A stretch of 27,254 nt of DNA from a virus. The stretch's first letter is position 1. Each line of letters starts with the position of its first letter. The stretch lies in IMG/VR virus record IMGVR_UViG_3300017708_000028, positions 1 through 27,254 of that record; one strand, given 5' to 3'. The translations under genes and the position numbers were made by a program. Shown one piece after another: positions 1,087-19,002 of the stretch. Below the pieces are notes generated by a model that was not told the DNA's origin, did not search any database, and was given only the letters and a program-made list of their open reading frames with translations.

Positions 1087-1117
1087 AGGTCATTTTCTTG
1101 GAAATGACCTATTTTTT
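1087..1117 (+). terminator. Rho-independent terminator for the + strand cluster
   Basis: A perfect 9-bp stem, AGGTCATTT / AAATGACCT, with a six-base loop (TCTTGG), followed by A and six T residues on the + strand. It lies 91 bases after the DUF3310 stop, where the two transcription units converge. It overlaps the last codons and stop of the leftward HNH gene. The arm bases on the other strand are not followed by a T-run, so it should act mainly on rightward transcription. Confidence 0.75.
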
Positions 1118-1317
1118 GATCTATGTTGTAAAACTACATTACTTCGTGAATTATTAGCAGGATTTCCGTCTACATGATGAATATCAATATGACTTCCTTT
1201 TCTAACCCTACCTTCTCTTAACATTTGCCTACGTATTTTATTACGTTGAGCACGTCTTTTTTTCTGTGCAGTACTACCTTGGTAGTTATCGTATTCTTTT
1301 CTATAATTTCTAGCCAT
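1090..1317 (-). CDS. Small HNH-type nuclease-like protein
   Basis: A basic protein of 75 residues. An Arg/Lys-rich N-terminal half (RKEYDNYQGS, then KKRRAQRNKIRR) is followed by an HNH-like core: IDIHHVDGNP, then NNSRSNVVL and a closing SKNRS. The paired His, DGNP and later Asn match the minimal HNH layout seen in small phage proteins. Such genes are common in marine and T7-like phages and may nick DNA or act as free-standing homing-type nucleases. It is the last gene of the late operon, starting directly after the stop of the adenylate cyclase gene, at the outer edge of the curli cassette. The activity is inferred from the motif only. Confidence 0.75.
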   Translation of the reverse strand: MARNYRKEYDNYQGSTAQKKRRAQRNKIRRQMLREGRVRKGSHIDIHHVDGNPANNSRSNVVLQHRSKNRSFPRK

Positions 1318-3066
1318 TTATATAGTATACACCTTCAAAGCTTTTGCTTTACCTTTTACTTTAATAGTATCGTGTAAGACTGCAGTTGGTATTTTTTTTG
1401 CTGTACGTTCTCCAATTAATATATCTACACCTGCTTCTTTAGTTGCACTCTCTAATCGTGCCGCTGTATTCACAGCATCTCCTATTGCTGAATAGTCAAA
1501 TCTTGTATTACTCCCCATATTACCAATTACTGCTTCTCCAGTATTTATACCAATACCAATTGCTATAGGTTCGGGTAATTCTTTTTGCAGCGCTTTTATT
1601 GCCGTACGCATATCTTGGCCACAGGCGACAGCACGTTTTTCATGTTCATCAATCATTAGGGGGGAATTGAATATGGCCATGCATGCGTCGCCTATGAACT
1701 TATCTACCATACCGCCGTGTGCCTGGATGCATGTAACTTGCGCGGTAAGTACTTTATTCATTATTTCAGTCACTTGTTCTGGTTCTAACTTTTCAGATAA
1801 ATTTGTAAAACCTCTAACGTCAGTAAATAAAAACGTGCAAGTCCTACGTTCTCCTCCTAACTTAAGTAAACTAGGATCTTTTTGCAATCGTGCAACTTGC
1901 CTGGGGTCCAGGTAGTGCTCGAATTGTTTTTTAATTAACTGTCGTAGTTTAAACTGTTCATTAAACCTTAAATAAAATTCTTGCACAGATATAAGCACTA
2001 TTGATACTAAACTGTAACTAACATCTATAAGTATATTAGATGTAATTAAATACCAACCACCGACCGCGGTCATAGATCCAAGGCCCACGATTCCTACAAC
2101 AGTACCAACTAAACCAAATACACGTACTATAACTATAGCTAATATAAGTACTGTTACTAATATAAGTAATTCATATAATAGCGCAATGCCTGGTATTGCT
2201 GGCACATCTACCGTCATGCTTTCAGCTAACGCGGCTTGTATATGGTGGGGGTACAACAACCCAACTGGCGTAGCTATTTGGGGCATTACACCTTTTGCAC
2301 TCACACCTACAAACACAAACTTATCACGTACATTCATTTCATCCAAAGTAGTGCTCGGAGTATCTATCCAAGATACCCAACGCCTGCCTATTTCATCTAC
2401 TGGTATTTCTGCATAATCTGGCACAGTAAGTTCTTCAATCTGCCCTTGCTGCCCTTTGATAATGTACGTATCCGCACCTGCAATCATTTTAATAACTTGT
2501 ATACCAAAAGACGGAGTCCAACCATCTGGTGTCTGAAGTAGTAAAGGTAAACGTCTGACTAAATTATCTACATCGGTACGTGCAACTGCCAGCCCCTGGT
2601 AAGTTGAGTTTGCTAGCACGGACACATTCCCTATTACTCCTTGTGAGTCAATACCTTGTATAGGTATACCATCTCCTAATATAACTGTGCCTGTAGTTGG
2701 TGCGTAAGAACTGCCTCCTTCAAACGTAGCAATAACACTCGGACCTTGTAATAAAGCATCTGCAAATGCCTCATCTCCACCGAATCTATCTGCTTGTGGA
2801 AACGCAACAACCCAACCTACACCCAAAGCTCCTGCATTTAACAAGTCTAATTGTATTCGTGCAAGGTCTTGTCGCGGGTAAGGCCATCCGCCCGCAAGTG
2901 CTACATCTTCTTCTGTTATATCTAAAGTTACGAACCAGCCAGATGGATCTGGTGTTTGTACGAATGCGTCAAATGTTTTTAATTTAAGGATTTCTAATGC
3001 TTGCCAGTTAAACAACAACGGCATGCATAGTATTGGTATACTAAGTAACGAAATCCATTTCTTCAT
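1318..3066 (-). CDS. CHASE2-domain class III adenylate cyclase
   Basis: Membrane-bound sensor cyclase, 582 residues. Order: N-terminal membrane helix (about 4-20), extracytoplasmic CHASE2 sensor domain (about 25-285), three membrane helices (about 289-365), short linker, and a C-terminal cyclase domain (about 405-582). The catalytic set is complete: metal-binding Asp416 (TDVRGF) and Asp460 (DKFIGD), ATP-selecting Lys456 and Asp524 (FDYSAIGD), and transition-state Asn533 and Arg537 (VNTAARLE). Lys plus Asp in the specificity sites indicate ATP to cAMP rather than GTP to cGMP. The start ATG overlaps the FecR stop as ATGA, with a GGGGT-type ribosome site. CHASE2 ligands are unknown. The neighbouring periplasmic FecR protein is the obvious candidate partner. 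I regard the enzyme as intact; what cAMP would do in the host is not visible here. Confidence 0.92.
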   Translation of the reverse strand: MKKWISLLSIPILCMPLLFNWQALEILKLKTFDAFVQTPDPSGWFVTLDITEEDVALAGGWPYPRQDLARIQLDLLNAGALGVGWVVAFPQADRFGGDEAFADALLQGPSVIATFEGGSSYAPTTGTVILGDGIPIQGIDSQGVIGNVSVLANSTYQGLAVARTDVDNLVRRLPLLLQTPDGWTPSFGIQVIKMIAGADTYIIKGQQGQIEELTVPDYAEIPVDEIGRRWVSWIDTPSTTLDEMNVRDKFVFVGVSAKGVMPQIATPVGLLYPHHIQAALAESMTVDVPAIPGIALLYELLILVTVLILAIVIVRVFGLVGTVVGIVGLGSMTAVGGWYLITSNILIDVSYSLVSIVLISVQEFYLRFNEQFKLRQLIKKQFEHYLDPRQVARLQKDPSLLKLGGERRTCTFLFTDVRGFTNLSEKLEPEQVTEIMNKVLTAQVTCIQAHGGMVDKFIGDACMAIFNSPLMIDEHEKRAVACGQDMRTAIKALQKELPEPIAIGIGINTGEAVIGNMGSNTRFDYSAIGDAVNTAARLESATKEAGVDILIGERTAKKIPTAVLHDTIKVKGKAKALKVYTI

Positions 3067-4172
3067 CCTGACCCCTGTGTAATCCTTATGGTAGAGTCCC
3101 CCCCACCGTTTATTAACACTTGTTGTGTTTTACCATCCTGTAATAATATTATAGTATAGCCTTGCGATATGTTTAGGGTCAACTTAGTAGATTGTGTTAC
3201 TGCTCTTTCTAAAATAATACTTTCATCTTGTTTAAAAGTTGTAATCTGAGTAACTAAATCTTGTCCAAAGTTTGTGCCTTGTAACAATGTACCTGTAGTT
3301 AATGCTTGATCTCCTAAAGTATCTAGCTCTTCTATAACTTCTAATAAATCTTCAAAAAAATTAACATCTAAATAATTTATATCAAGCTCACTAAATTCAA
3401 GCGAGTCTTCTGCTAGATAATCAAACTCTAAATCCTCAAACTCTAAATAGTCTATGTCTAAAATTGCTCCAGTATTTCCGGACGTTGTGGATGACTCTGT
3501 GGATAACTTTGATTCGTCCGGGGGGCTAACAATCAACATATTGTCTATAATGTCTAACGTTAAATCTAATATAACAGGCTTGCTTGGAGCATTTTCAAAT
3601 ACATTAACAGTCGTAGCTTCATAAGGTCTGTTTAAAGTAACCGTACCTGCAGCAGTTGTAACAAGTATTTCGCCACTAGATAAACCATTAGCATCAGGCA
3701 ATAGGATAATAAGTGAACGTCCAAGTTCGTCCACAGTACACGTAAAATCAGTCCCACGGATTGCAATGTCAGCTGTAGGTGTAGAAAGTTTTATGTTTCT
3801 TTTATCAATCTTGCCTAATTTACTGCTTACAAATCTAGCCGTACCGCTAGCAAATGTCATAGCCATTTTACCTTTTGAAGGATCAGGATCGTAAATGTAT
3901 TCAGTTATGACAAGTTTAGAATGTTCCGTTAGACGTACGATAGAATCGTCCAGGAATGTTATGCCCACACGTCCGTTAGTTGTACGAACGTCATCCATTT
4001 GTTGGATGTCAAAATCTAATTCAGCGCCGTAAGGTTGGTCTCTTAAGACGCTAGCAGTCCCTTTTAGTTCAGAAATATCTCCAATATTAACAGCTTGTGC
4101 TTGTGCCTTGGTCGTTTTGAATGACGCAAACAGTACCACTATTACCGTTAGATATAATTTTAAGCCAGTCAT
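3063..4172 (-). CDS. Exported FecR-domain protein with acidic repeat and beta-rich tail
   Basis: 369 residues. A signal peptide (about 1-26, ending KAQAQA) predicts export. Residues about 55-185 form a FecR domain: DDVRTTNGRVGI, then the hallmark TPTADIAIRGTDF (131-143). The second half is unusual. About 237-285 is a run of Asp/Glu-Leu-Phe/Tyr motifs (such as DYLEFEDLEFDYL), and the final 40 residues are Gln/Gly-rich beta-like sequence ending ITQGSG. FecR in iron signalling is a membrane-anchored anti-sigma regulator. Here there is no sigma factor and no cytoplasmic anti-sigma part, only the periplasmic domain. The start lies 83 bases inside the end of the curlin gene, in another frame, with no clear ribosome binding site, so translational coupling is likely. 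A later start would lose the signal peptide. A link with the downstream CHASE2 cyclase is likely. Confidence 0.85.
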   Translation of the reverse strand: MTGLKLYLTVIVVLFASFKTTKAQAQAVNIGDISELKGTASVLRDQPYGAELDFDIQQMDDVRTTNGRVGITFLDDSIVRLTEHSKLVITEYIYDPDPSKGKMAMTFASGTARFVSSKLGKIDKRNIKLSTPTADIAIRGTDFTCTVDELGRSLIILLPDANGLSSGEILVTTAAGTVTLNRPYEATTVNVFENAPSKPVILDLTLDIIDNMLIVSPPDESKLSTESSTTSGNTGAILDIDYLEFEDLEFDYLAEDSLEFSELDINYLDVNFFEDLLEVIEELDTLGDQALTTGTLLQGTNFGQDLVTQITTFKQDESIILERAVTQSTKLTLNISQGYTIILLQDGKTQQVLINGGGDSTIRITQGSG

Positions 4173-4797
4173 TGTCTTGGGTACTCAGTTGTTTAATATT
4201 AAAAGTTCTGCTGTTACCTGTTTGGTCAAGGTAAAAATATCCGCCTGCATAGCCTGAACCATCAAATGTAACATTGTTAGAATCACCATCTACATCTACA
4301 TAAGATGTAGCACCATCGTAGTTAATATCAAAATCAAATGTATTACTAGAACCATTTATAATCCAATCTAAGTCTAAATTACCAGTTAAAGCTGCCGTAC
4401 CTACGTTTAACGTAAAATCATTGCTGTCTCCTGTAGCATCTATATTAAGATTACTACCGTCAGCTCCATAGGTATTAGTAGGGTCTACTTGAATTGTAAA
4501 GTCATTACTGTCTCCATCAAACTCAAAAAAACCTGTAAAATTGTCAGCTAAAATATCCCCTAAAAACGTATTAGAACTACCTATTTGATTTATGTCTAAA
4601 GTCATAGTAGCGCCATCAAGGTCAAGAGCAGTCATACTACCAGCAGCAGCGTTAAGCCCGCCTATGATATTACCAGAACCAAGTTGTTCTAAGTCTAGGT
4701 TTAAAGTAGCACCAGCTTGATCTACGTATATTTCGTTATCAGCCGCGTACAGAGGCGACACAATCAGCATCGCAATCAATAGTTTTGTATTTTTCAT
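4087..4797 (-). CDS. csgA: Curlin-like amyloid subunit (CsgA/CsgB-type repeats)
   Basis: Predicted secreted curli-type fibre subunit of 236 residues. A Sec signal peptide (about 1-18, ending SPLYA) is followed by about seven curlin-like repeats, each centred on Gly-Ser/Asp/Asn-Ser/Gly-Asn/Arg. The Asn positions are 43, 76, 98, 126, 152 and 174, with Arg at 197, so spacing is 22-33 residues. Gln precedes the motif in three repeats (QLGSGN, QIGSSN, QTGNS), as in canonical curlin, and is replaced by Asp, Thr or Asn in the others. The mature protein is very Asp/Asn/Gly-rich. Cys224 and Cys236 lie at the extreme C terminus. A good ribosome site (GGAG six bases before ATG) supports the start, although it lies inside the end of csgG. 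The csgA symbol is by analogy: it could serve both CsgA and CsgB roles. Export through the neighbouring CsgG pore is inferred from context. Confidence 0.82.
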   Translation of the reverse strand: MKNTKLLIAMLIVSPLYAADNEIYVDQAGATLNLDLEQLGSGNIIGGLNAAAGSMTALDLDGATMTLDINQIGSSNTFLGDILADNFTGFFEFDGDSNDFTIQVDPTNTYGADGSNLNIDATGDSNDFTLNVGTAALTGNLDLDWIINGSSNTFDFDINYDGATSYVDVDGDSNNVTFDGSGYAGGYFYLDQTGNSRTFNIKQLSTQDNDWLKIISNGNSGTVCVIQNDQGTSTSC

Positions 4798-5599
4798 GTA
4801 TACTCCAATAGCCTGCTTCTGTACCCTCCTTAATTATTTGCAGGACTGCTGTTTCTATGGCGGCCCTTAAAGCCAATCCTCCGGACTCGTTTCTTACAAC
4901 ACCACTTTCTATCTCGACTAATTCTGTATTATCAGAAATAAATCGAAAAACATCGTTACTTAATGAGGCACTTAGTATCGTTTTAGTTACCAGTGTCTCT
5001 AGTAAAACTTTTCCCGTTGTAACAGATACCAACCTAAGCTGCACTGTTACTGAATCTCTTCTATACGCTTTGGTTGCACCTAAGCCTAAATAACGTGCTC
5101 CAGCACCGCCAGACGTAACGTTACTTTCATATCCTATCACACCTCCCTCTATAATTAAACCTGCGAACAAGAGGGCCCCTAGTTCCTTAGCATCATCTTC
5201 TTTTTCTCTAGTGCTTCTTATAATTTGGCGTTCTTTAGTTAAGTTATCTAAACCTACCCTTTCAACTACAGTAAAAAACCCCCCGTGTTCAGAACCTGCT
5301 TTATGTAAAGCTCTTATTAAATAAGCACTTGGTAATTGGGTTATTGCAGTAGAGAAAGAAGCGTAGCTTGAATTGCTTAATCTTTGGCCTGTTTGGTCTG
5401 TAAAACTTGTAGGATAAACTGCAACTACTGGTTTACGTGTTGGCACCCCAATAGAAGAAAGATTAGATACTGCGAGTGTTTCTACCTCTGCTTTTTCTAT
5501 TTTTTTTATCGGGCCTATATTATTTTCTATGGGGTCAAATACTAAGGACGCACAACTAGAAAGTAAAACTACCGATAGGAATTTGAATAATTGTTTCAT
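4739..5599 (-). CDS. csgG: CsgG curli secretion pore lipoprotein
   Basis: Outer-membrane curli export channel, 286 residues (E. coli CsgG precursor about 277). A lipoprotein signal with lipobox LSSC (Cys16) is followed by the CsgG domain. Diagnostic blocks match E. coli CsgG: SFSTAITQ (81-88), ERVGLDNLTKERQIIR, then GYESNVTSGGAGARYLGLG, TVQLRLVSVTTGKVL and TKTILS, with VFRFI near the end. In the constriction region the conserved Phe is kept (Phe82, equivalent to Phe56), but the positions I align with Tyr51 and Asn55 are both Ser (77 and 81). The family forms a nine-fold pore that secretes curlin subunits with CsgE and CsgF. It overlaps csgF by 44 bases and the curlin gene by 59. No CsgE is present. 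The identity is secure from the sequence pattern. Confidence 0.95.
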   Translation of the reverse strand: MKQLFKFLSVVLLSSCASLVFDPIENNIGPIKKIEKAEVETLAVSNLSSIGVPTRKPVVAVYPTSFTDQTGQRLSNSSYASFSTAITQLPSAYLIRALHKAGSEHGGFFTVVERVGLDNLTKERQIIRSTREKEDDAKELGALLFAGLIIEGGVIGYESNVTSGGAGARYLGLGATKAYRRDSVTVQLRLVSVTTGKVLLETLVTKTILSASLSNDVFRFISDNTELVEIESGVVRNESGGLALRAAIETAVLQIIKEGTEAGYWSIHEKYKTIDCDADCVASVRG

Positions 5600-6068
5600 T
5601 GCCGTCCGAGTCCACCACAGTTAGCGTTATTATACCGTCTACTACACTATAGGTAATTGTATTACCTTCTAACTCAATTGTACCATTATCGCTTGGAGTC
5701 TCGCCAAACAAAGCTTCTACAAGTTGTCTAGACAACTGTGCATAAATCCTAGACTCTAAATTACGGACAAATCTAGCAAGGGTTGTGTTCTCTTTGTCTC
5801 TTTCTATTTGGTCTTGCAAAGCTTTTAATTCTGCCTTTATAGACATTTTTCTAGTGTGTTCAACATTATCTATTGTTAAATAATGGCTAGAAGTATTCTC
5901 TCCACTAAAAGAAGGAGACTTAAATTTATGAGTCATTTGATCTGCTTTTACATTTATAACAAAAATGCCTACAGCTAAAATAGCTCCTATAAACATTATT
6001 ATTTTTAACATAAGTACTTTGTCTGCTTCTTCTTTTTGCAGTTGTTTTTTAGTCTTTCCTTTGGTCAT
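5556..6068 (-). CDS. csgF: CsgF curli assembly factor
   Basis: 170 residues from the ATG at 6068. Residues 45-56 (MTHKFKSPSFSG) correspond to the N-terminal CsgG-binding strand of E. coli CsgF (MTFQFRNPNFGG). The middle (about 97-122) matches the helical part, and the C terminus ending in GSF matches the beta-rich part. In E. coli, CsgF inserts its N terminus in the CsgG pore and holds the nucleator at the cell surface. A hydrophobic segment (21-41, ending VKA-DQ) is the export signal, but a charged 20-residue leader precedes it. ATG at 6011, which would give a normal signal peptide, is an alternative start without a clear ribosome site. A still longer frame starts with TTG at 6086. It overlaps the preceding gene by 20 bases and csgG by 44. 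Confidence 0.9.
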   Translation of the reverse strand: MTKGKTKKQLQKEEADKVLMLKIIMFIGAILAVGIFVINVKADQMTHKFKSPSFSGENTSSHYLTIDNVEHTRKMSIKAELKALQDQIERDKENTTLARFVRNLESRIYAQLSRQLVEALFGETPSDNGTIELEGNTITYSVVDGIITLTVVDSDGNETIIQIPIGSFTF

Positions 6069-6399
6069 CTCTATCCGCCTTAGCAATTTTATTGCTATCT
6101 ATAAGTTGAGGTACGCCAAGAATAGTTTTAATCAAAGTGTCTTGTCTTATGATTTCATTATCTAAACTACGTATTCTGTCTATTAATGCTACTAAAATAC
6201 CGTGTTGAGAGTCAAGTTTCGTGCCAAGTCTCTCTTCAATTGCTTGTATTTGTCCGGCTACCTTTTCGTCAACTACATCTAGTTTTTGTTCCATACCGTC
6301 AACAATACGCATAATTAATTTATAAATAAACCACCCTAGGCCTAGGGCAGCTGCTATAGGAAAACCAACCTCTTGTATTACGGTAACTGCTGATTCCAT
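6049..6399 (-). CDS. Small membrane/coiled-coil protein, possible lysis accessory
   Basis: 116 residues. One N-terminal membrane helix (about 11-31) is followed by a long amphipathic coiled coil (about 35-92) and a charged C-terminal tail. The layout resembles the single-span membrane proteins encoded beside phage holins, but I do not recognise a named family. The start codon overlaps the stop of the holin gene as TGATG, so the two are translationally coupled. It lies between the holin and csgF. A role in lysis or in envelope anchoring is an inference from position and topology. Confidence 0.65.
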   Translation of the reverse strand: MESAVTVIQEVGFPIAAALGLGWFIYKLIMRIVDGMEQKLDVVDEKVAGQIQAIEERLGTKLDSQHGILVALIDRIRSLDNEIIRQDTLIKTILGVPQLIDSNKIAKADRDDQRKD

Positions 6400-6869
6400 C
6401 AGTCTTGTTTATTGGAGGCCCCAAAATAAAATGATATTACTGCAGATGCTAGGCCACCGAGATAGCCTAAGACCAAATTAATTAGGGCCTCACTGTTCTG
6501 TTCTGGTGGTTGGAGAGTTACGAGGAAGATATAACCAAGGAAACCACCAACCATAGCTACACCAATTATTCTAGCAGTCCAGTCTTTACTAAAAGTTTTT
6601 CGTGCATCTTGTTTTTCTTGTGTTTCTAGTTTGTACAGATCAACGTCAAGCTCTTTCATCTTTGCTTCAAAGTCTTTTTCTGCTTTCTTTATTTCTAGGA
6701 GTTGCTCAGGTGTAGCAGTCGCAATAGCTTTTTCTAATGATGCAGGGTTATTATCTACCCCTAAAATTTTTGATATAACATCTCCTGCCATACCACCTAA
6801 TGGCCCGCCTAATGCAGTTCCTAATGTTGGAGCAACGCTTCCTATTATATTACCCAGTAACTTCTTCAT
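6399..6869 (-). CDS. Holin, GTA_holin_3TM-like
   Basis: 156 residues from the ATG at 6869. A TTG nine bases further upstream is less likely. A Gly/Ala-rich hydrophobic N terminus (SVAPTLGTALGGPLGG) is followed by a helical, charged centre (about 40-95) and two membrane helices (about 100-120 and 128-150). The N-terminal GGPLGG segment with two downstream helices is the pattern of the three-TM holin family named after gene transfer agents. Holins permeabilise the inner membrane so that endolysin can act. A GGGAA/GGAG stretch precedes the start. The lysozyme gene is about 5 kb upstream in the same operon rather than adjacent. Confidence 0.72.
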   Translation of the reverse strand: MKKLLGNIIGSVAPTLGTALGGPLGGMAGDVISKILGVDNNPASLEKAIATATPEQLLEIKKAEKDFEAKMKELDVDLYKLETQEKQDARKTFSKDWTARIIGVAMVGGFLGYIFLVTLQPPEQNSEALINLVLGYLGGLASAVISFYFGASNKQD

Positions 6870-7900: not shown

Positions 7901-9844
7901 CTATGAACTAAATTTAATAAACCTAGCATCTGCTCCTCCCATTAATTGAAAATTGCTGTCGCCTTGTGCATATATAAAAATATTAAGAGTTCCTGAGCCT
8001 GTGTATCTAAAAGCTAAAGGTATGTTTGAACTATCTTTGCCTGTAGTTAACCTACTATTAGAAATCCATGTCCCTGTTAGATATACAAGCTCGGGTGTAA
8101 CTAAAATAGCATGAGAAGCACTTTCAGTTATTTTAGTTATATCAGTAAACGTTACACTAGTATCAACATCGTTAGAACTACTTGCACCAAATGTTCCATC
8201 AGATATTAAAAAACTAATAGTTTTGATTTGCCCAGCAAAAGATCCTTTGAACACTCTTATGTATCCTGTGTAAAACCCAGCCCCAGAACCTATTTCAGCT
8301 ACGTGCCTGTAGTTAAGATCATTCTCGTGCCAGTAACCTAACGTGGTGCCCGTTTTTTCTCCGCCATTTGTAGGCAACGTCAAATCAGTTGTGTTTATCT
8401 TTGCTGCTGTAATAGTATTAGCACCAATCCTGTCAGCAGATATTGTGCCAGCATTTATCTTGTCAGCACTCAAATCATTTATTTTTGCATTTGTAATTTG
8501 GGCGTCTCCAATTTTAGCGGTGGTAATATTTGCATTTGCAATTTTAGCCGTTGTAACTTGTAGATCACCTATCTTGGCTTCTGTAATTTGGGCGTCTCCA
8601 ATTTTAGCACTTTGAATTGTTCCATCTAAAATACGTGCATTTGTTATAGCCCCATCTTGAATACGTGCGCTGTCTATAAATACTGTACCCCCACTAACTA
8701 TAAAAGGTGCTACATTAGCGTTAGTTCCATTCCAAATTGCAAACTTATCTGCTTGAAATTGCACAAAAGATTGTGCTCCTGAGCCATTACTGGCGTTAGA
8801 ACCTATGACCATACCAGCTACTGATTTACTATTGTTAGACTCTGTAGCTACTTGCAATACAAACATTGCATTAAGATCGCCTGTATGACTAGCTGTAGTA
8901 GTATTCAGTGTATTAATCGAACTAGTGTTGCCATTAACAGTAGAAGTTAAACTAGTTACAGAAGATGCAGTAGAACTTTGTGCATTTGTAACAGTAACAA
9001 TGTCAGACTGAGCAGTAGCCATAGCAGCACTTAAAGTGCTGCCTGTAAAACTAGTGCTACCAAAAAGGTTAACTAATGTAGCATCACGCCCCGCTACCCA
9101 AGCATTGTTAGCAGCATTTCTTGTGTATACTTGGCCATCATCAGTATCAAACCAGATATCAAAAGCTCCTATAGACGAACCATCTGCTCTCGTGCTAGGT
9201 TGGCTAGAAGATTTTATTACGTTAGCAGCTGCTGCTGTTGTAGTAATTAAATTAAACCCGGGCAAATTAGATAATTCTTCTGATAGCTGTTGCATTACAG
9301 CCCCTATATTTTCTATTGTTGTGGCTTTTGTACCATTTGTTTGGTTAAATGGCCCCCTTACATTACTAGTGCTTACAAACCTAACCCAATAAAAATAAGT
9401 TTGGTCATAGCCTACGGGATCAGTAATAATAAAAGAAGCAGTAGTTGTTATAAGAGTTGCAGTACCTACTTCATCATCTCTTGAACGCCATACCTCTGTA
9501 AAAGCATGGTTGCTATATTGAGCAGGGTTCCAATTAACTATTATTTCGGTAAAAGCACCAGAAGCCTCTAACCCTGTAGGAGCAGGGGGTATAGTTAAAT
9601 CACCAACAGTATCATCGTTAGGTATAAAATCTATAAGACCATTTGGGTCAAACGGTCTTTTGCTTAAACGTTTTGCTAAACCGCTATCTACAAGTTCTCT
9701 AAGAGTAATAGCTCTATCTAAAGGATCTCCACGTCTGCCTAGTCGTATTTCTTGTGCTTCTTTCATAGAATTAAGAGTATCTTTTAACTCTCTATCTATT
9801 TTGTTAGGGATGTTTTTTAGTGCAGGGACTTTAGTTTTAGACAT
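7901..9844 (-). CDS. Tail-tip/host-specificity-like protein with FN3 and DUF1983
   Basis: 647 residues. Order: a conserved N-terminal segment (KVPALKNIP, later RLGRRGDPLDRAITLRELVDSGLA), one fibronectin type III domain (about 85-165, PPAPTGLEAS to VRFVS), a Ser/Thr coiled region (about 260-325) and a DUF1983-like segment (about 325-395, including FVQFQADKFAIW). Then come ten-residue AKI repeats (about 393-485) and a C-terminal beta-rich domain that may bind the cell surface. DUF1983 occurs in lambda gpJ-type host-specificity proteins. The stop overlaps no downstream gene; the start overlaps the nozzle-like gene stop at base 9844. It is a likely adhesion or tail-tip component, with the exact place in the virion unknown. 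Confidence 0.8.
   Translation of the reverse strand: MSKTKVPALKNIPNKIDRELKDTLNSMKEAQEIRLGRRGDPLDRAITLRELVDSGLAKRLSKRPFDPNGLIDFIPNDDTVGDLTIPPAPTGLEASGAFTEIIVNWNPAQYSNHAFTEVWRSRDDEVGTATLITTTASFIITDPVGYDQTYFYWVRFVSTSNVRGPFNQTNGTKATTIENIGAVMQQLSEELSNLPGFNLITTTAAAANVIKSSSQPSTRADGSSIGAFDIWFDTDDGQVYTRNAANNAWVAGRDATLVNLFGSTSFTGSTLSAAMATAQSDIVTVTNAQSSTASSVTSLTSTVNGNTSSINTLNTTTASHTGDLNAMFVLQVATESNNSKSVAGMVIGSNASNGSGAQSFVQFQADKFAIWNGTNANVAPFIVSGGTVFIDSARIQDGAITNARILDGTIQSAKIGDAQITEAKIGDLQVTTAKIANANITTAKIGDAQITNAKINDLSADKINAGTISADRIGANTITAAKINTTDLTLPTNGGEKTGTTLGYWHENDLNYRHVAEIGSGAGFYTGYIRVFKGSFAGQIKTISFLISDGTFGASSSNDVDTSVTFTDITKITESASHAILVTPELVYLTGTWISNSRLTTGKDSSNIPLAFRYTGSGTLNIFIYAQGDSNFQLMGGADARFIKFSS
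8390..8668 (-). repeat. Ten-residue AKI/GDAQIT tandem repeats
   Basis: Within the tail-tip protein, residues about 393-485 repeat every ten residues on the pattern A-K-I-x-(D/N)-x-x-I/V-T-x. Examples are AKIGDAQITE, AKIGDLQVTT and AKIGDAQITN. This gives about nine units of 30 bases. Such repeats are thought to form a triple-stranded stalk in tail fibres. Confidence 0.8.
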
Positions 9845-11839: not shown

Positions 11840-12295
11840 TCATTTTCCAGTATCTAGAACAGAGGCTTGTAGTTCTTTACTCCTTCTTCCTACTTGTGAA
11901 TACCACCTGCTGTTCTCCATTTCAGCGGCCATTTGTTCCCAATTATGTGATCTACAAGCACTTAACATATTTTTAAAATTAGAAAGTCTCGTGCCACCTA
12001 AATTAAAACACATGTTTACTAACACATGTTGAATATTCTCAGGAAGGTTATAAAAAGCTTCTTCAGTGCCAAATATATGTATAGCTTCTGCTAAATGCTT
12101 ATCAAAGTCATCTTCATAGTACATATCTACTACTTCTTGTGATACTTTTGTACCTACTTCCCAATCATACTCTGGGTCTCCTGGTTGGCATAAATGCCCT
12201 ACACCAAGAGTTTTAAAACCTAAACTATCTTCGTATATCTTTAAAACTTCGCCTTCATGGCGTTTAATTTCAGCTTTACACTTTTCAATATCCAT
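11840..12295 (-). CDS. T4-type lysozyme (endolysin, GH24)
   Basis: 151 residues. The catalytic triad of the family is visible: Glu14 (KRHEGE), Asp23 (IYEDSLG) and Thr29 (FKTLGVGHL), matching Glu11, Asp20 and Thr26 of T4 lysozyme. The C-terminal lobe (NMCFNLGG, then SRWYSQVGRRSKEL) is also typical. It cleaves the glycan strands of host peptidoglycan at lysis. There is no signal peptide, so it needs a holin for access. It lies one base after the stop of a DUF6447-like gene and just before the nozzle-like gene. Confidence 0.92.
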   Translation of the reverse strand: MDIEKCKAEIKRHEGEVLKIYEDSLGFKTLGVGHLCQPGDPEYDWEVGTKVSQEVVDMYYEDDFDKHLAEAIHIFGTEEAFYNLPENIQHVLVNMCFNLGGTRLSNFKNMLSACRSHNWEQMAAEMENSRWYSQVGRRSKELQASVLDTGK

Positions 12296-14021: not shown

Positions 14022-15817
14022 TATTCAGTCTCCTTTAGTGACTCTACTATTACCTTGCCGTTTTCATCTGTCCAATTAGCGTCTATCATGTGTTGGTCTT
14101 GTCTTTCGCCTATTACCAACCAAGAAACTGTTGCAGTTGAGCTATTGTTTTGACAAGTTATTGTTAGAATATTTCCTACTACACTTCCCTTTACATTATC
14201 CCAATCTGTTTCATTAGATGTAAATACTTGCACATCTGTATTTAAAGCTACAAAAGTTCCTTCAGACATACCTGCTACAGTATCAATATTAACTGTTGCA
14301 GAACCTCCTACTAAATTTACTTTTCCTCTGTAAATTAAATCAGCTTGTGGTCCTTCTATAAATGAATGAACTAGATGATGTGTGTCTTTTTTAGAGTCTA
14401 ATGGGTGACTAATTTTAAATGAACCTGAAGCTTTAGATAAAGCACCCCCTACTTCTAAATCTCCATTATCTACTATTCTGATTCCCTTATCACCTGATGC
14501 ATGGTGTGCAATAACAATACCACCTGCACTCTCAGCAAGTATACATACATCGTTTGTGTGTGTTAAACTAGAGAAACCACCAGTAGCAGCATAAGGCACA
14601 AACTTAATAACATTACCACCTATACCTGTAAAAGATGCAGCTTGTGTATTTGTTGATCCTGCCTGTACATTTAGAGTAGCATTCATTGTTGTAGTATTGA
14701 TTCCTACCTTTCCTGAATTATCAATACGCATCCTTTCTGGGATAGAACCTCCTGAACCAGTATAAAAAAGTAAACCACCTTCTGCGTTTGATGCACTACT
14801 TGCAATATTTATAACTTGCATACCACCAAGCAAAGCAAAACCAGCAGTACCAACAGTACTTCCAAAAAAAGATGCTGCTCCAGCATTTACTGAGGTAGAT
14901 GTTGTCTGACCATTAAAGACACCATAACCTGAACCACCCTGTACCCCTAAATATTTAAAAGTACCTCCAAATCCTGTTGTACTTGGTGTTGCTCCAATTC
15001 CAACATGACCTGAACTATCAATAAACATTCTGTCGCCAACACCTTCTTGAGTAAATCTCATACCATCAGTTGAAGCGTTAGGTCTTAAAGTAAAGTTATT
15101 GGTCTGACTTGGTCTACGCATAGCAATACCATCATTTCCTTCTACTTGTAACATTGAACCAGTAGAAGAAGATGGAGTTCTACCTATACCAACCAAGCCT
15201 GAAGTATCAATACGCATTCTTTCTGTATTGTTAGTTATAAATGCTGTTGCATGATTACTTTCTGTACCAAAATAACCAACAGTATCAGTTGCAGTTATTT
15301 CAATATTTAATGTATTTGTAGTATCTGTAATTCTTATAGCTGGATTTGATGCATTAGATAAATGTAATAAAGTTGATGGACTAGTCGTACCAATACCAAC
15401 TCGTTCACTACTATCAATAGTTATGGCTGTTGCATCAGCACTTGAGCTAATACCTGCAACACCACCTGCTGCATCTTCCCATGCAACACCACTTCCTGTT
15501 GAGGTTAAGACTTGACCATCAGAGCCTTGTCCGCCATTAACTTTAAAATTTTGTCCATCTACTAATGGACTTGTAACTGAAGTAGCAATTGTTACAGCAT
15601 TTTCTATCTTTGCGCCCGTAACGGCATCATCTACTATAGAAGCAGTTACAACTGCACTAGAAGCTAACTGGTCTGCCCCAACCGCGTCATCTGCTATAAG
15701 AGCCGAAGTTATTGCGTCATCTGCTATAAGAGCAGAAGTTATTGCATCATCAGCAATTTTTGCAGAAGTAATTGCATCGTCTGCTATTACGTTAGTTGTG
15801 ATCTTAGTGTTAGCCAT
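14021..15817 (-). CDS. Tail-fibre-like protein 2
   Basis: 598 residues. Ten-residue IADDAITSA repeats (about 3-74) lead into a GQVLTSTGSGVAWEDA module. Next come GISSSADATAITIDSS and several beta modules closing with ERMRIDNSGKVGI-like strands, typical of long phage fibres. The C-terminal domain (HPLDSKKDTHHLVHSFIEG, then ADLIYRGKVNL and VIGERQDQHMIDANWTDENG) is a module I recall from many marine tail-fibre-like proteins. Start and stop are coupled to the neighbours by TAATG-type overlaps. It is likely a trimeric host-binding fibre. Confidence 0.78.
   Translation of the reverse strand: MANTKITTNVIADDAITSAKIADDAITSALIADDAITSALIADDAVGADQLASSAVVTASIVDDAVTGAKIENAVTIATSVTSPLVDGQNFKVNGGQGSDGQVLTSTGSGVAWEDAAGGVAGISSSADATAITIDSSERVGIGTTSPSTLLHLSNASNPAIRITDTTNTLNIEITATDTVGYFGTESNHATAFITNNTERMRIDTSGLVGIGRTPSSSTGSMLQVEGNDGIAMRRPSQTNNFTLRPNASTDGMRFTQEGVGDRMFIDSSGHVGIGATPSTTGFGGTFKYLGVQGGSGYGVFNGQTTSTSVNAGAASFFGSTVGTAGFALLGGMQVINIASSASNAEGGLLFYTGSGGSIPERMRIDNSGKVGINTTTMNATLNVQAGSTNTQAASFTGIGGNVIKFVPYAATGGFSSLTHTNDVCILAESAGGIVIAHHASGDKGIRIVDNGDLEVGGALSKASGSFKISHPLDSKKDTHHLVHSFIEGPQADLIYRGKVNLVGGSATVNIDTVAGMSEGTFVALNTDVQVFTSNETDWDNVKGSVVGNILTITCQNNSSTATVSWLVIGERQDQHMIDANWTDENGKVIVESLKETE
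15596..15811 (-). repeat. Ten-residue IADDAITSA tandem repeats
   Basis: At the N terminus of fibre 2, units such as IADDAITSAK and IADDAITSAL follow each other every ten residues (30 bases). They become degenerate towards residue 74. The middle units are nearly identical in DNA, indicating recent expansion. Confidence 0.8.
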
Positions 15818-18800
15818 TACTCACTCTCCAATTTTGCTTTGAGTTCTTCTACTTGTGCAGATAGTTCTTTTACTGCGTTAATAAGTGGGTAAATAAACAT
15901 AGCTTGTGCTAATTGTTGTGAGCCATCTTTTTCTTCTGACCAACCTCCAAAGTTTTTATGTCCTACCTTATCTAATGCCTTTTCTACATCTTGTGCAATC
16001 ATTCCGTACAGATTTGTTTCTGTGTCCATAGTGTTTTCTGTTTCAGAATAATCTATGTAATGTTTAGGAAACTCAGTATTTGGTTTCCAATTAAATGTTA
16101 CAGGTCTTAATTCATTTATAAAACTTAATCCTAGATCTGTATCTTCTATATTAGTTTTTTTATGTAAATCTGAACTTCTAGTAAAAGTAGCATTTGATGT
16201 AAATACATTACTAACACGATTTCCTGATTTACCAAAACTAAAGCTGTTTGATTGTGGTGCTGTTAGATTATCTCCAATAACAATACAGTTTGCTGTTGCT
16301 TCACCTGATGTATTTGTAGCATCACCTATACAAACATTTTGACTACCTTGTGTGATATTGTTTCCTGCATCTATACCAACACATACATTATTTGCACCTG
16401 ATGTAATATTATCACCTGCTGTTTTTCCGACACAAGTGTTTCCTGATCCACCAACACAACGAGTTAAGGCATCAAATCCTACACAAGTATTATTGCCACC
16501 TGTGGTTATTTGATTTCCTGCTTTAGAACCACAAGCAGTATTATTAGTAGCTGTTGTGTTTGCTCCAAGTGCATCAAAACCTATAGCACATAAATTATCC
16601 CCTGTGGTATTTGCATCTAAACAAGAGTTACCAACTGCTGTGTTTTGTGACGCTGTTGTATTATTAGTTAAAGCTTGAAAACCTATTGCAACATTTGAAT
16701 GACCTGAACTATTTGAGTAAAGAGCATTATTACCAATAGCTACAGTATCGTAACCACTACTACTATTCATCAATGCTCGGTAACCTATTGCAACTACTCC
16801 TGTTGTATCTGTGTTTTGTGCAGCTGAAAAACCTACTGCAACATTTCCTAAACGATTAACAGCAGAAGTTAATGCATTATCACCTATTGCAACTATTCCA
16901 TTTGCAGTCTGATTCGCATCTAGTGCATTTCTTCCTATAGCTATGTTTTCACTACCTGTTGTATTTGCTGCCATAGCCGAGGTACCGATAGCAACATTTC
17001 TATCTCCAGTTGTATTACTTGTTAAAGAACTTTCTCCAACTGCTGTATTACTATGCCCATCAGTATTTGCATCAAGTGAGTTTCTTCCAATACCCACATT
17101 GTCATAGCCAGTCGTGTTTGCTGTCATGGCGTTGTTACCTACCGCTGTGTTGTTATCGGCAGTGGTATTCGCATCTAATGCTGCATAACCCACAGCTACG
17201 TTTCTATCGCCTGTTGTATTTGCATACATTGAGTCACGACCAATGGAAACATTTTCTGTACCAGTTGTGTTTGTGTTTAATGCTCTATACCCAAAAGCGT
17301 CATTGTTTGAAGCGGTGGTATTACTTGTTAAAGCAAGTTTACCAAATGCTGTATTATTATCTCCTGTCGTATTAGCATCTAAAGTACCATGTCCCATAGC
17401 TGTGTTAGAGCCACCTGTAGTATTTGCACCTAAAGCGTTTCTACCAAAAGCGTTATTATCTCCACCAGTAGTATTTGCATCTAAAGCACCAGAACCGAAT
17501 GCATTATTGTCAGCACCTGTGGTGTTTTGTAATAAAGCAGCATTACCAACGGCCGTGTTGTTATCTGCTGTAGTATTGTTTTCTAACGAATTAGAACCTA
17601 CAGATACATTACCTGTGCCTGTTGTGTTTGTTCTAAGAGAATCTTTACCAATAGCAACATTATTATTACCAGTTGTAAGGTCTTCTAAAGCTAAATAACC
17701 AACTGCTGTGTTACTATCTCCTGTAGTTAATGCTGTAAAAATATCAACACCTAAACCTGTATTATAATTAGCTGCATCTATTGTGCCTGTGGCATTATCT
17801 CCAACCATAATTGAAGAAGTACCAAATGTTTTAAATGTTGGTCCACTAGCTGGTGCGTCTTCCCAAGCAACTCCACTACCGGTTGAAGTTAATAATTGCC
17901 CATCTGAACCTTGAGCTCCACCTACTGTTAAGTTATTTAATTCTACTGTTCCGTTTACATCTAATGTTTGTGTTGGGCTTGAAGTATTTATACCAACTTT
18001 ATTAGTACTAGAGTTTACAACTAAAGTGTTCGTATCAACTGTTAAGTTGGCTGACATTTTTACATCGCCCACAATATCTACGGGCACGGATGGTGAAGCA
18101 GTTCCTAGGCCTACACGAGAGTTAGAGTTGTCTACTACAAAAGTAGGAGAATCAAACGCAACGTCGTGAGATCCTACGGTTAGCGTGCCTGGAGTAGTTA
18201 TGTTGCCCGAAAGCTTTGCGCTTGTTACGGTGCCATCGCTTGGTGTACCTATGTTTACTGGATTTATTACATAAACAGTAACAGTTCTACCTGATACAAC
18301 GCCCGTGTCTAATGTAAGAGTGTTGTTGCTGATTGTGTACGCAGCTTGGTTTTGAAACACACCATTTATAAATACTATAAGGTTGCTTTCTGCTGCTGGA
18401 GAGTCGGATAAAGTAAAAGCTGTTTGGTTAGAAGTAGCTGTAAAAGTGTCTACGGTAAGGTTAGAAGATTGTAGATTAATAAGGTTATCTACAATCACCT
18501 CTATCTTCGTGCCGTTTACTGGAGCTGCATCAAAAGTTAGTGTGCTACCACTAAAGCTAAATGTATCGTGGTGTTGCATAACACCATCAAGGAATACCAT
18601 AGCATTAGCTTCTACGCCTGGGTTTATACCTACATCATATGCAGTTGCGCTAGAAGCCGCTGTAGCGTTGTAAACAGTTTGGTTGGCTGATTTAGATGCA
18701 ATGTTCTCTTGTATGTCCGTGAGAAGCGCTGCAGTTGTTCTAAGCTGTACTGTAGAGCCATTAGCAAAGGTTCTTGCTGTTGTATTGTCTGATGCACGAA

Positions 18801-19002
18801 CTACGGTCCATGTGGTGCCTGAAACAGCAGTAATCTTAACAATTTCAAGATTAGTGCCGTCAGATATCGTGGCGTAGAAATATTCTCCTGCGCCTACGGT
18901 AGGAAAGGTGCTACTGCTAGTAACGGATATGCTGGTAGCACTTGTACTAGTTATAGCCGCTGCTAGAGTAGTTTCGGCATTGTTTGTAAAAACTACGCCC
19001 AT
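15817..19002 (-). CDS. Large tail fibre with YadA-head repeats and S74 chaperone
   Basis: 1061 residues. Order: a conserved virion-attachment N terminus (FTNNAETTLAAAI, then EIVKITAVSGTTWTVVRAS, about 1-100), two similar beta domains (about 105-175 and 180-250, each with an IVFI/MVFLNGV-like strand), and beta modules with GIGT/GINTSSP strands. A long array of 17-residue YadA-head-like repeats follows (about 430-915), then a C-terminal peptidase S74 chaperone domain (about 943-1050) and a short coiled coil. In S74, Ser944 (SSDLHKK) and Lys949 fit the self-cleaving Ser-Lys arrangement. S74 domains guide trimer folding and are then released. It is a host-adhesion fibre; the mature tip may be the end of the repeat array. 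Confidence 0.87.
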   Translation of the reverse strand: MGVVFTNNAETTLAAAITSTSATSISVTSSSTFPTVGAGEYFYATISDGTNLEIVKITAVSGTTWTVVRASDNTTARTFANGSTVQLRTTAALLTDIQENIASKSANQTVYNATAASSATAYDVGINPGVEANAMVFLDGVMQHHDTFSFSGSTLTFDAAPVNGTKIEVIVDNLINLQSSNLTVDTFTATSNQTAFTLSDSPAAESNLIVFINGVFQNQAAYTISNNTLTLDTGVVSGRTVTVYVINPVNIGTPSDGTVTSAKLSGNITTPGTLTVGSHDVAFDSPTFVVDNSNSRVGLGTASPSVPVDIVGDVKMSANLTVDTNTLVVNSSTNKVGINTSSPTQTLDVNGTVELNNLTVGGAQGSDGQLLTSTGSGVAWEDAPASGPTFKTFGTSSIMVGDNATGTIDAANYNTGLGVDIFTALTTGDSNTAVGYLALEDLTTGNNNVAIGKDSLRTNTTGTGNVSVGSNSLENNTTADNNTAVGNAALLQNTTGADNNAFGSGALDANTTGGDNNAFGRNALGANTTGGSNTAMGHGTLDANTTGDNNTAFGKLALTSNTTASNNDAFGYRALNTNTTGTENVSIGRDSMYANTTGDRNVAVGYAALDANTTADNNTAVGNNAMTANTTGYDNVGIGRNSLDANTDGHSNTAVGESSLTSNTTGDRNVAIGTSAMAANTTGSENIAIGRNALDANQTANGIVAIGDNALTSAVNRLGNVAVGFSAAQNTDTTGVVAIGYRALMNSSSGYDTVAIGNNALYSNSSGHSNVAIGFQALTNNTTASQNTAVGNSCLDANTTGDNLCAIGFDALGANTTATNNTACGSKAGNQITTGGNNTCVGFDALTRCVGGSGNTCVGKTAGDNITSGANNVCVGIDAGNNITQGSQNVCIGDATNTSGEATANCIVIGDNLTAPQSNSFSFGKSGNRVSNVFTSNATFTRSSDLHKKTNIEDTDLGLSFINELRPVTFNWKPNTEFPKHYIDYSETENTMDTETNLYGMIAQDVEKALDKVGHKNFGGWSEEKDGSQQLAQAMFIYPLINAVKELSAQVEELKAKLESE
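16260..17715 (-). repeat. About 28 tandem 17-residue YadA-head repeats (51-base period)
   Basis: Units follow N-x-(A/S)-(V/I/F)-G-x-x-(A/S)-(L/M)-x-x-N-T-(T/D)-(G/A)-x-x, for example NVAVGYAALDANTTADN. The Gly and hydrophobic positions are constant and the loops vary. The pattern matches the head repeats of trimeric autotransporter adhesins (YadA, Hep/Hag). Boundaries are approximate. The last units become Cys-containing and diverge. Confidence 0.85.

Follow-up and report, generated by a model that had tools for sequence, protein, structure and literature searches.

A type VIII secretion cassette at the end of a phage gene run

We analysed the marine phage record IMGVR_UViG_3300017708_000028 (27,254 bases; this whole stretch is hereafter called the window), in which a first reading of the letters, the original prediction, had placed a curli (type VIII) secretion block at 3063-6068. 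Together with the flanking p116 and cyclase genes, the block is, as judged by homology, a phage type VIII secretion cassette. Twenty-five genes could be placed from 27253 down to 1090, all on the minus strand and with a largest intergenic gap of 40 bases. Upstream of the cassette this run contains virion, tail-fibre and endolysin families. The cassette forms its downstream end, in the order p116-CsgF-CsgG-curlin-FecR-cyclase and followed by an HNH-type open reading frame (ORF), and the plus-strand ORFs (2-995) converge on that end.

6049-6399, minus strand: p116, small membrane/coiled-coil protein (phrog_18771, E 5e-16)
5556-6068, minus strand: CsgF-like accessory protein (Pfam PF10614, E 7.4e-18)
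4739-5599, minus strand: CsgG-like outer-membrane pore lipoprotein (Pfam PF03783, E 1.7e-48)
4087-4797, minus strand: single curlin-repeat protein, 236 amino acids (aa) (family profile against the PDB, 8c50, E 3.1e-6)
3063-4172, minus strand: FecR-domain protein (Pfam PF04773, E 1.3e-10)
1318-3066, minus strand: CHASE2-adenylate cyclase (Pfam CHASE2, E 2e-27; cyclase, E 3.9e-21)
1090-1317, minus strand: HNH-type ORF, last gene of the run
6399-6866, minus strand: p155, cassette neighbour outside the exchanged block (phrog_1544, E 1e-26, function unknown)
3050-5900, no strand: probable recent exchange tract, 89-99% identical to the related viral genome G531 per 150-nt step

The original prediction had seen CsgF, CsgG and a signal-peptide curlin-repeat protein in one block of a phage operon, with a FecR protein and an adenylate cyclase as companions. 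Profile searches bear out the block, which sits in a single same-strand run with virion genes, and both companions are present, the cyclase lying outside 3063-6068.

CsgG, CsgF and the curlin-repeat protein

The window encodes the elements that define type VIII secretion at the level of sequence, namely a CsgG lipoprotein, a CsgF with its N-terminal segment and a curlin-repeat substrate. In a PDB search, CsgG matched solved CsgG at E 5.2e-42, and its lipobox Cys16 is invariant across 12 aligned sequences. The constriction residues of E. coli CsgG, Tyr51, Asn55 and Phe56, face Ser77, Ser81 and Phe82 of the window protein in the PDB alignment. Of 63 distinct phage-type sequences, 61 retain this constriction-loop Phe, and all 63 have an aromatic residue three places ahead of it. 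The mature part of CsgF carries a conserved N-terminal motif, MTHKFKSPSFSG; of 59 distinct sequences, 58 retain its core residues. It is with its N-terminal segment that CsgF enters the barrel of CsgG. Searched on its own against PDB sequences, CsgF did not retrieve a CsgF. Being far above the Pfam cut-offs, both family assignments are sound as homology calls.

The curlin-repeat protein is the weakest family call of the cassette. NCBIfam returned CsgB alone, below cut-off (E 0.008). When a profile of 24 phage relatives was compared with the PDB, the solved curlin-repeat protein 8c50 was the top and sole significant match, the next row standing at E 0.11. Past a signal peptide read by eye, the AlphaFold2 model is all-beta (pLDDT 83.6), and its alignment to the CsgA fibril of E. 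coli has a Z of 11.6 (109 of 111 residues, rmsd 8.7); Foldseek of the model against the PDB gave nothing at E <=0.001. Structurally the model matches beta-solenoids in general, with SufB/SufD-type beta-helices at the top (Z 15-16, up to 16.3) and the CsgA fibril below them. Furthermore, the protein ends in a C-x11-C tail (4087-4150), and a cysteine tail is conserved in podovirus-type loci and absent from the curlins of the pelagimyophage HTVC008M and the methylophage Melnitz. Both features would fit a secreted protein that forms a non-amyloid surface beta-solenoid, serving as an adhesin or a receptor mask, instead of a fibre. We consider this quite unlikely, given that the top PDB match by sequence profile is a curlin-repeat fibre protein and that the loci examined have curlin together with CsgG and CsgF.

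Conservation across viral loci

We compared 80 viral loci, the best 80 of 328 related stretches in viral contigs, and counted a gene as intact when it was at or above the length threshold and did not touch a contig end.

CsgG: 79 intact, 1 cut
CsgF: 74 intact, 1 split (L010), 4 cut, 1 not found
Curlin: 73 intact, 7 cut
FecR: 72 intact, 1 cut, 7 not found
Cyclase: 55 intact, 13 cut, 12 not found

Where a locus had enough room, curlin was present in 73/73 cases, FecR in 70/70 and the cyclase in 49/51, the two loci with room but without cyclase being L062 and L081. Disruption of the ORFs in related genomes would have spoken against the original prediction; their lengths show no disruption other than the one split CsgF, leaving aside genes cut at contig ends, not reached or absent. 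The ratio of nonsynonymous to synonymous substitution (dN/dS) of the genes compared with L005, L011, L021 and L071 was 0.03-0.17, CsgF against L005 being the exception at 0.32 (overlapping gene stretches are included, and two L071 values were not computable). The genes compared are under purifying selection, with curlin about as constrained as CsgG. Because the CsgG/CsgF/curlin trio is constant, we regard the export of curlin, and not the pore alone, as the probable selected function.

These counts bear on another explanation, in which the CsgG/CsgF pore would have been repurposed for lysis timing as a gated outer-membrane pore, with curlin incidental. A pinholin idea of this kind has been proposed for Melnitz (PMC9004378). 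The cassette does follow lysis-type genes, the endolysin (11840-12295) and p155, whose resemblance to GTA_holin_3TM is weak and below cut-off (Pfam E 0.14), and among the p116 relatives one has a match to a holin PHROG (E 0.002). Nevertheless, the presence of curlin in every locus with room, under constraint similar to that of CsgG, makes this explanation improbable. Moreover, Melnitz is described as being without fibre genes in PMC9004378, contrary to its record, which annotates two curlin-repeat proteins, one of them matching the window curlin; this conflicts with the premise of missing fibre genes.

In a collection of 50,697 phage records, the matches of p116 and those of curlin fall in the same six (two of HTVC008M and four of Melnitz), and CsgG matches these six and one short record. 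The latter, OR851715.1 (1,499 bases, named Salmonella phage), encodes a CsgG 40% identical and may be host DNA. HTVC023P and HTVC027P are in the collection, yet without a p116, curlin or CsgG match, and megablast of window bases 1-25000 against the same records gave no match.

The gene ahead of CsgF

Among the 63 loci with room, p116 lies within ~1.2 kb upstream of CsgF in all, as one copy in 46 and as two in 17; the family spans ~83-127 aa. In PMC9599517 a histidine kinase, sometimes two, is placed ahead of CsgF in the cassette. Based on its position and its one or two copies, p116 is probably the same gene. However, 15 family members (86-116 aa) had no HisKA/HATPase or other kinase domain at E <=1, their weak matches being to coiled-coil and other models, and p116 does not have the make-up of a sensor histidine kinase.

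The FecR-domain protein and the cyclase

The start of the FecR gene overlaps the end of the curlin gene by 86 bases (4087-4172), which encode the FecR signal peptide in a second frame; the two frames overlap in 73/73 loci counted. At the place of the window's FecR start, the in-frame codon in these loci is ATG or GTG in 43, CTG in 15, ACG in 14 and CCG in one, and loci lacking ATG or GTG may use near-cognate or upstream starts. The signal peptide was read by eye, from an N-terminal stretch that looks like one. The structure model of the protein is confident over about residues 30-190 and poor at the C-terminus (mostly pLDDT <50). In a profile comparison, this C-terminus resembled curlin weakly (score 18.05, E 0.023, 12 columns; exceeded by 1 of 100 shuffles of the columns), so that a curlin-like nucleator there would be a lead only.

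FecI/FecR regulators carry an N-terminal anti-sigma domain and a transmembrane segment ahead of the FecR domain. The window protein does not have this architecture: PF04773 was the only family listed at E <=1, there was no match to an anti-sigma domain, and a simple scan found no strong transmembrane segment (no 19-residue window >1.6). Since the anti-sigma domain match is missing, reading the protein as an iron regulator is unsupported. This has consequences for the proposal, made in PMC9599517 and PMC7029224, that an open pore imports nutrients during infection (cobalamin, siderophore iron or larger molecules), with FecR signalling iron. The lack of a CsgE gate among the proteins scanned would suit such a role. 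On the other hand, import leaves the constant CsgF and curlin unexplained and the FecR protein is unlike an anti-sigma regulator; we therefore hold it very unlikely.

The cyclase residues D416, K456, D460, D524, N533 and R537 are 91-100% conserved over 66 relatives; we take them to be the two metal-binding Asp, the Lys/Asp base selectors and the Asn/Arg transition-state pair. This conservation places the protein among class III adenylate cyclases, and it also matches PDB cyclases. FecR-domain proteins have been found clustered with a CHASE2-adenylate cyclase in Campylobacterota (PMC9239204) and with a CHASE2-kinase in a Burkholderia biofilm operon (PMC5192318). In the class of the bacterial genome G003, a FecR ORF occurs near a CHASE2-cyclase in 3 of 30 loci (~1.5 kb flanks), once on the same strand and directly upstream and twice on the opposite strand. 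Since bacteria have such a FecR/CHASE2-cyclase arrangement of their own, the two phage proteins may be read as an envelope sensor pair. The window has no ORF between their genes, and a gap of more than 100 bases separates them in 4/49 loci. At one locus of the viral genome G532 (L137), the FecR and cyclase genes are separated by an ORF at 8947-9327 that looks cytidylyltransferase-like by eye.

Carrier phage and exchange of the cassette

The window is a fragment without most core genes, so the HTVC023P-type setting put forward in the original prediction was examined on its long relatives, G531 (58.4 kb, CsgG 98% identical) and G532 (62.9 kb, CsgG 88%). Shared proteins were counted from ORFs of >=100 aa at E <=1e-8, over ~51 of the 60.9 kb of HTVC023P and 49.9 of the 64.1 kb of Pseudomonas phage KPP25. 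With Aeromonas phage phiA008, G531 has 15 proteins in common and G532 has 16 (terminase 51%, major head protein 45-47% and portal 33-34% identical); with KPP25 the counts are 10 and 12. With HTVC027P or HTVC023P only 1-3 are shared, at 20-36% identity; by this count G531 and G532 do not show the HTVC023P-type core set of terminase, capsid, PolA, helicase and GroES. The window itself matches 20 proteins of G531, 19 of G532, 7 of phiA008, 2 of KPP25, none of HTVC027P and 1 short tail-repeat of HTVC023P. On this protein sharing (15-16 with phiA008 against 1-3), an HTVC023P-type origin is rejected for the lineage of the window, and the pelagiphage setting is not supported for it; by gene content this lineage is phiA008/KPP25-like.

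The same cassette is found in G535, an HTVC023P-like genome (17 and 15 common proteins; terminase 57%, capsid 58%, GroES 45-50% identical) with a CsgG 62% identical to that of the window; the cassette therefore moves between unrelated phages. Two proteins match HTVC027P/HTVC023P in G533, G534 and G536, and G537 has no match to any of the four reference phages. The cassette thus occurs in at least three virion backgrounds besides myophages.

Against G531, the high identity extends from ~5,900 to 3,050, that is from the C-terminal part of CsgF to the end of FecR, and nearly coincides with 3063-6068. On either side, identity per 150 bases is 40-93%, mostly 67-88%. Likewise, dS is 0.12-0.27 for CsgG, curlin and FecR versus 0.8-1.3 for p116, p155, SNase and the cyclase. 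High tract identity and a dS low relative to the flanks suggest that this block moved recently by recombination.

We took no host hints from the labels of the metagenome-assembled genomes holding L092-L097 (Neomarinimicrobiota, Maricaulis, Synechococcus, Flavobacteriaceae, Rhodobacteraceae), because p116 adjoins the cassette in each and the labels contradict each other. Elsewhere in the late run of the window, a 1,061-aa protein (15817-19002) has many NNTAxG-like repeats by eye.

Bacterial genomes and the cAMP puzzle

CsgG was found in 2 of 147 SAR11-like genomes. Both cases sit on phage contigs, L125 (endolysin, terminase large subunit, portal) and L124 (terminase small subunit, polynucleotide kinase), and the idea that SAR11 carries curli itself was rejected. 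In the class of G003, CsgF occurred at 10 places in 7 of 385 genomes, 6 of them over cut-off. Five places were dropped: the four in G003 are phage-type and have a p116 pair, and the one in G183 is below cut-off. This left the chromosomal loci L115-L118 and L123. A 23-row CsgG tree splits 18 phage-type rows from the 5 chromosomal rows with support of 100/99.

In a sample of 99 SAR11-like genomes (the family of G004, SAR11 by inference, genome completeness not given), a class III cyclase domain was over cut-off in two, both times on a phage contig (G004:C1, G430:C11); a further match, in G449, was weak and below cut-off. The cNMP-binding domain was found in 4/99 and the control RecA in 90/99. 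GAF, present in 9/99, may still be an alternative receptor of cyclic AMP (cAMP). Seven related viral records (35-63 kb, some possibly fragments) contain no cNMP-binding domain that could act as a phage-encoded receptor. A 1.2 Mb genome of this sample holds a CHASE2 protein (G102:C1:324111-325130, 683-aa frame) with no cyclase-domain match.

Because cyclase and cNMP-binding domains are nearly absent from the sample, a cAMP receptor is not evident for SAR11 phages with the cassette, and the cyclase raises a sharp question about the role of cAMP in cells seemingly without receivers. For the window phage the puzzle may not apply. We see a small chance that the cassette is a phage-owned second-messenger circuit, in which FecR would read, in the periplasm, the secreted curlin or the state of the pore, the CHASE2-cyclase would answer with cAMP, and the unit would travel between unrelated phages. 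Such a circuit could involve a hidden cAMP receptor in the host (SAR11 at least), or cAMP could serve as an ATP drain or leave through the CsgG pore, possibilities to which we give a similarly slight weight.

Proposed function

Homology, conserved key residues, co-conservation and purifying selection support the cassette as a unit. Its best explanation, which we think probable, is that a type VIII cassette is expressed with the late genes and that its CsgG/CsgF pore exports curlin onto the infected cell. We infer the late timing from gene position. CsgG, a lipoprotein exported by Sec, would assemble into a ring-shaped pore of the host outer membrane, with CsgF capping or narrowing it; the single curlin-repeat protein would pass through and give the infected cell an amyloid-like coat or fibres. 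The FecR-domain protein, likewise exported, and the membrane-bound CHASE2-cyclase would work as a sensor pair, reading the envelope and making cAMP. The likely benefit would be an altered surface of the infected cell, promoting adhesion or aggregation of nearby hosts or excluding other phages.

Several observations weigh against curlin export. Among 10 proteins scanned around the cassette with Pfam, none matches CsgE, CsgC or CsgD, and the cassette has only one curlin gene. Of the three profile matches that the original prediction looked to, those of CsgG and CsgF were clear, but the 236-aa curlin, scanned as a single sequence, matched no Pfam model above cut-off. No FecR was found within the short flanks of 27/30 CHASE2-cyclase loci in the class of G003. 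Finally, Melnitz, which has a related cassette, is reported not to clump in culture (PMC9004378). Overall, what the original prediction observed is confirmed, and its interpretation is partly supported, with the assembly of a pore, the formation of amyloid and a late timing being predicted from homology and gene position.

If curlin export is correct, very abundant marine bacteria would secrete amyloid-like fibres while infected, with a change in their surface and stickiness. Moreover, that phages whose virion genes are unrelated have the same cassette points to a unit that travels as a whole and is worth keeping.

Comparison with known systems

The window does not reproduce the canonical E. 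coli csgBAC/csgDEFG set, with separate CsgA and CsgB plus CsgC, CsgD and CsgE. It has instead the gene set and order of the marine-phage type VIII cassette, which appeared in print in 2020-2022 (PMC7029224, PMC9599517, PMC9004378), as the original prediction had stated; csgGF is also reported from temperate viruses of sediments (PMC9636769).

The closest description is that of uncultivated HTVC023P-type podoviruses in PMC9599517, with the shared order (short gene, 1-2)-CsgF-CsgG-CsgA/B-FecR-(CsgA/B)-adenylate cyclase and, in both, no CsgC, CsgD or CsgE. The window differs in having one curlin, an upstream gene without a kinase domain and a phiA008/KPP25-like carrier, the latter comparison having been made with HTVC023P/HTVC027P. 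HTVC008M and Melnitz have a p116 pair, CsgF, CsgG, curlin, FecR and cyclase in the same order, with CsgG 43% and 40% identical to that of the window, respectively. They are different phages from that of the window (Kyanoviridae in their records). Between FecR and cyclase they have one more gene, which is annotated as a curlin repeat in Melnitz and as hypothetical in HTVC008M.

In the five chromosomal loci, CsgF adjoins CsgG as in the window; unlike at the phage cassette, phage hidden Markov models find no p116, FecR or CHASE2-cyclase within ~20 kb around them. The Campylobacterota clusters share FecR and the CHASE2-cyclase with the window, but together with a phosphodiesterase and a TPR protein, and curli genes are not mentioned in the available part of PMC9239204. 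No title in our literature search names a phiA008- or KPP25-like carrier, which is weak evidence of absence as the search covered open-licence literature. The cassette itself is thus already known from ocean phages, and its phiA008/KPP25-like carrier is an unrelated kind of phage.

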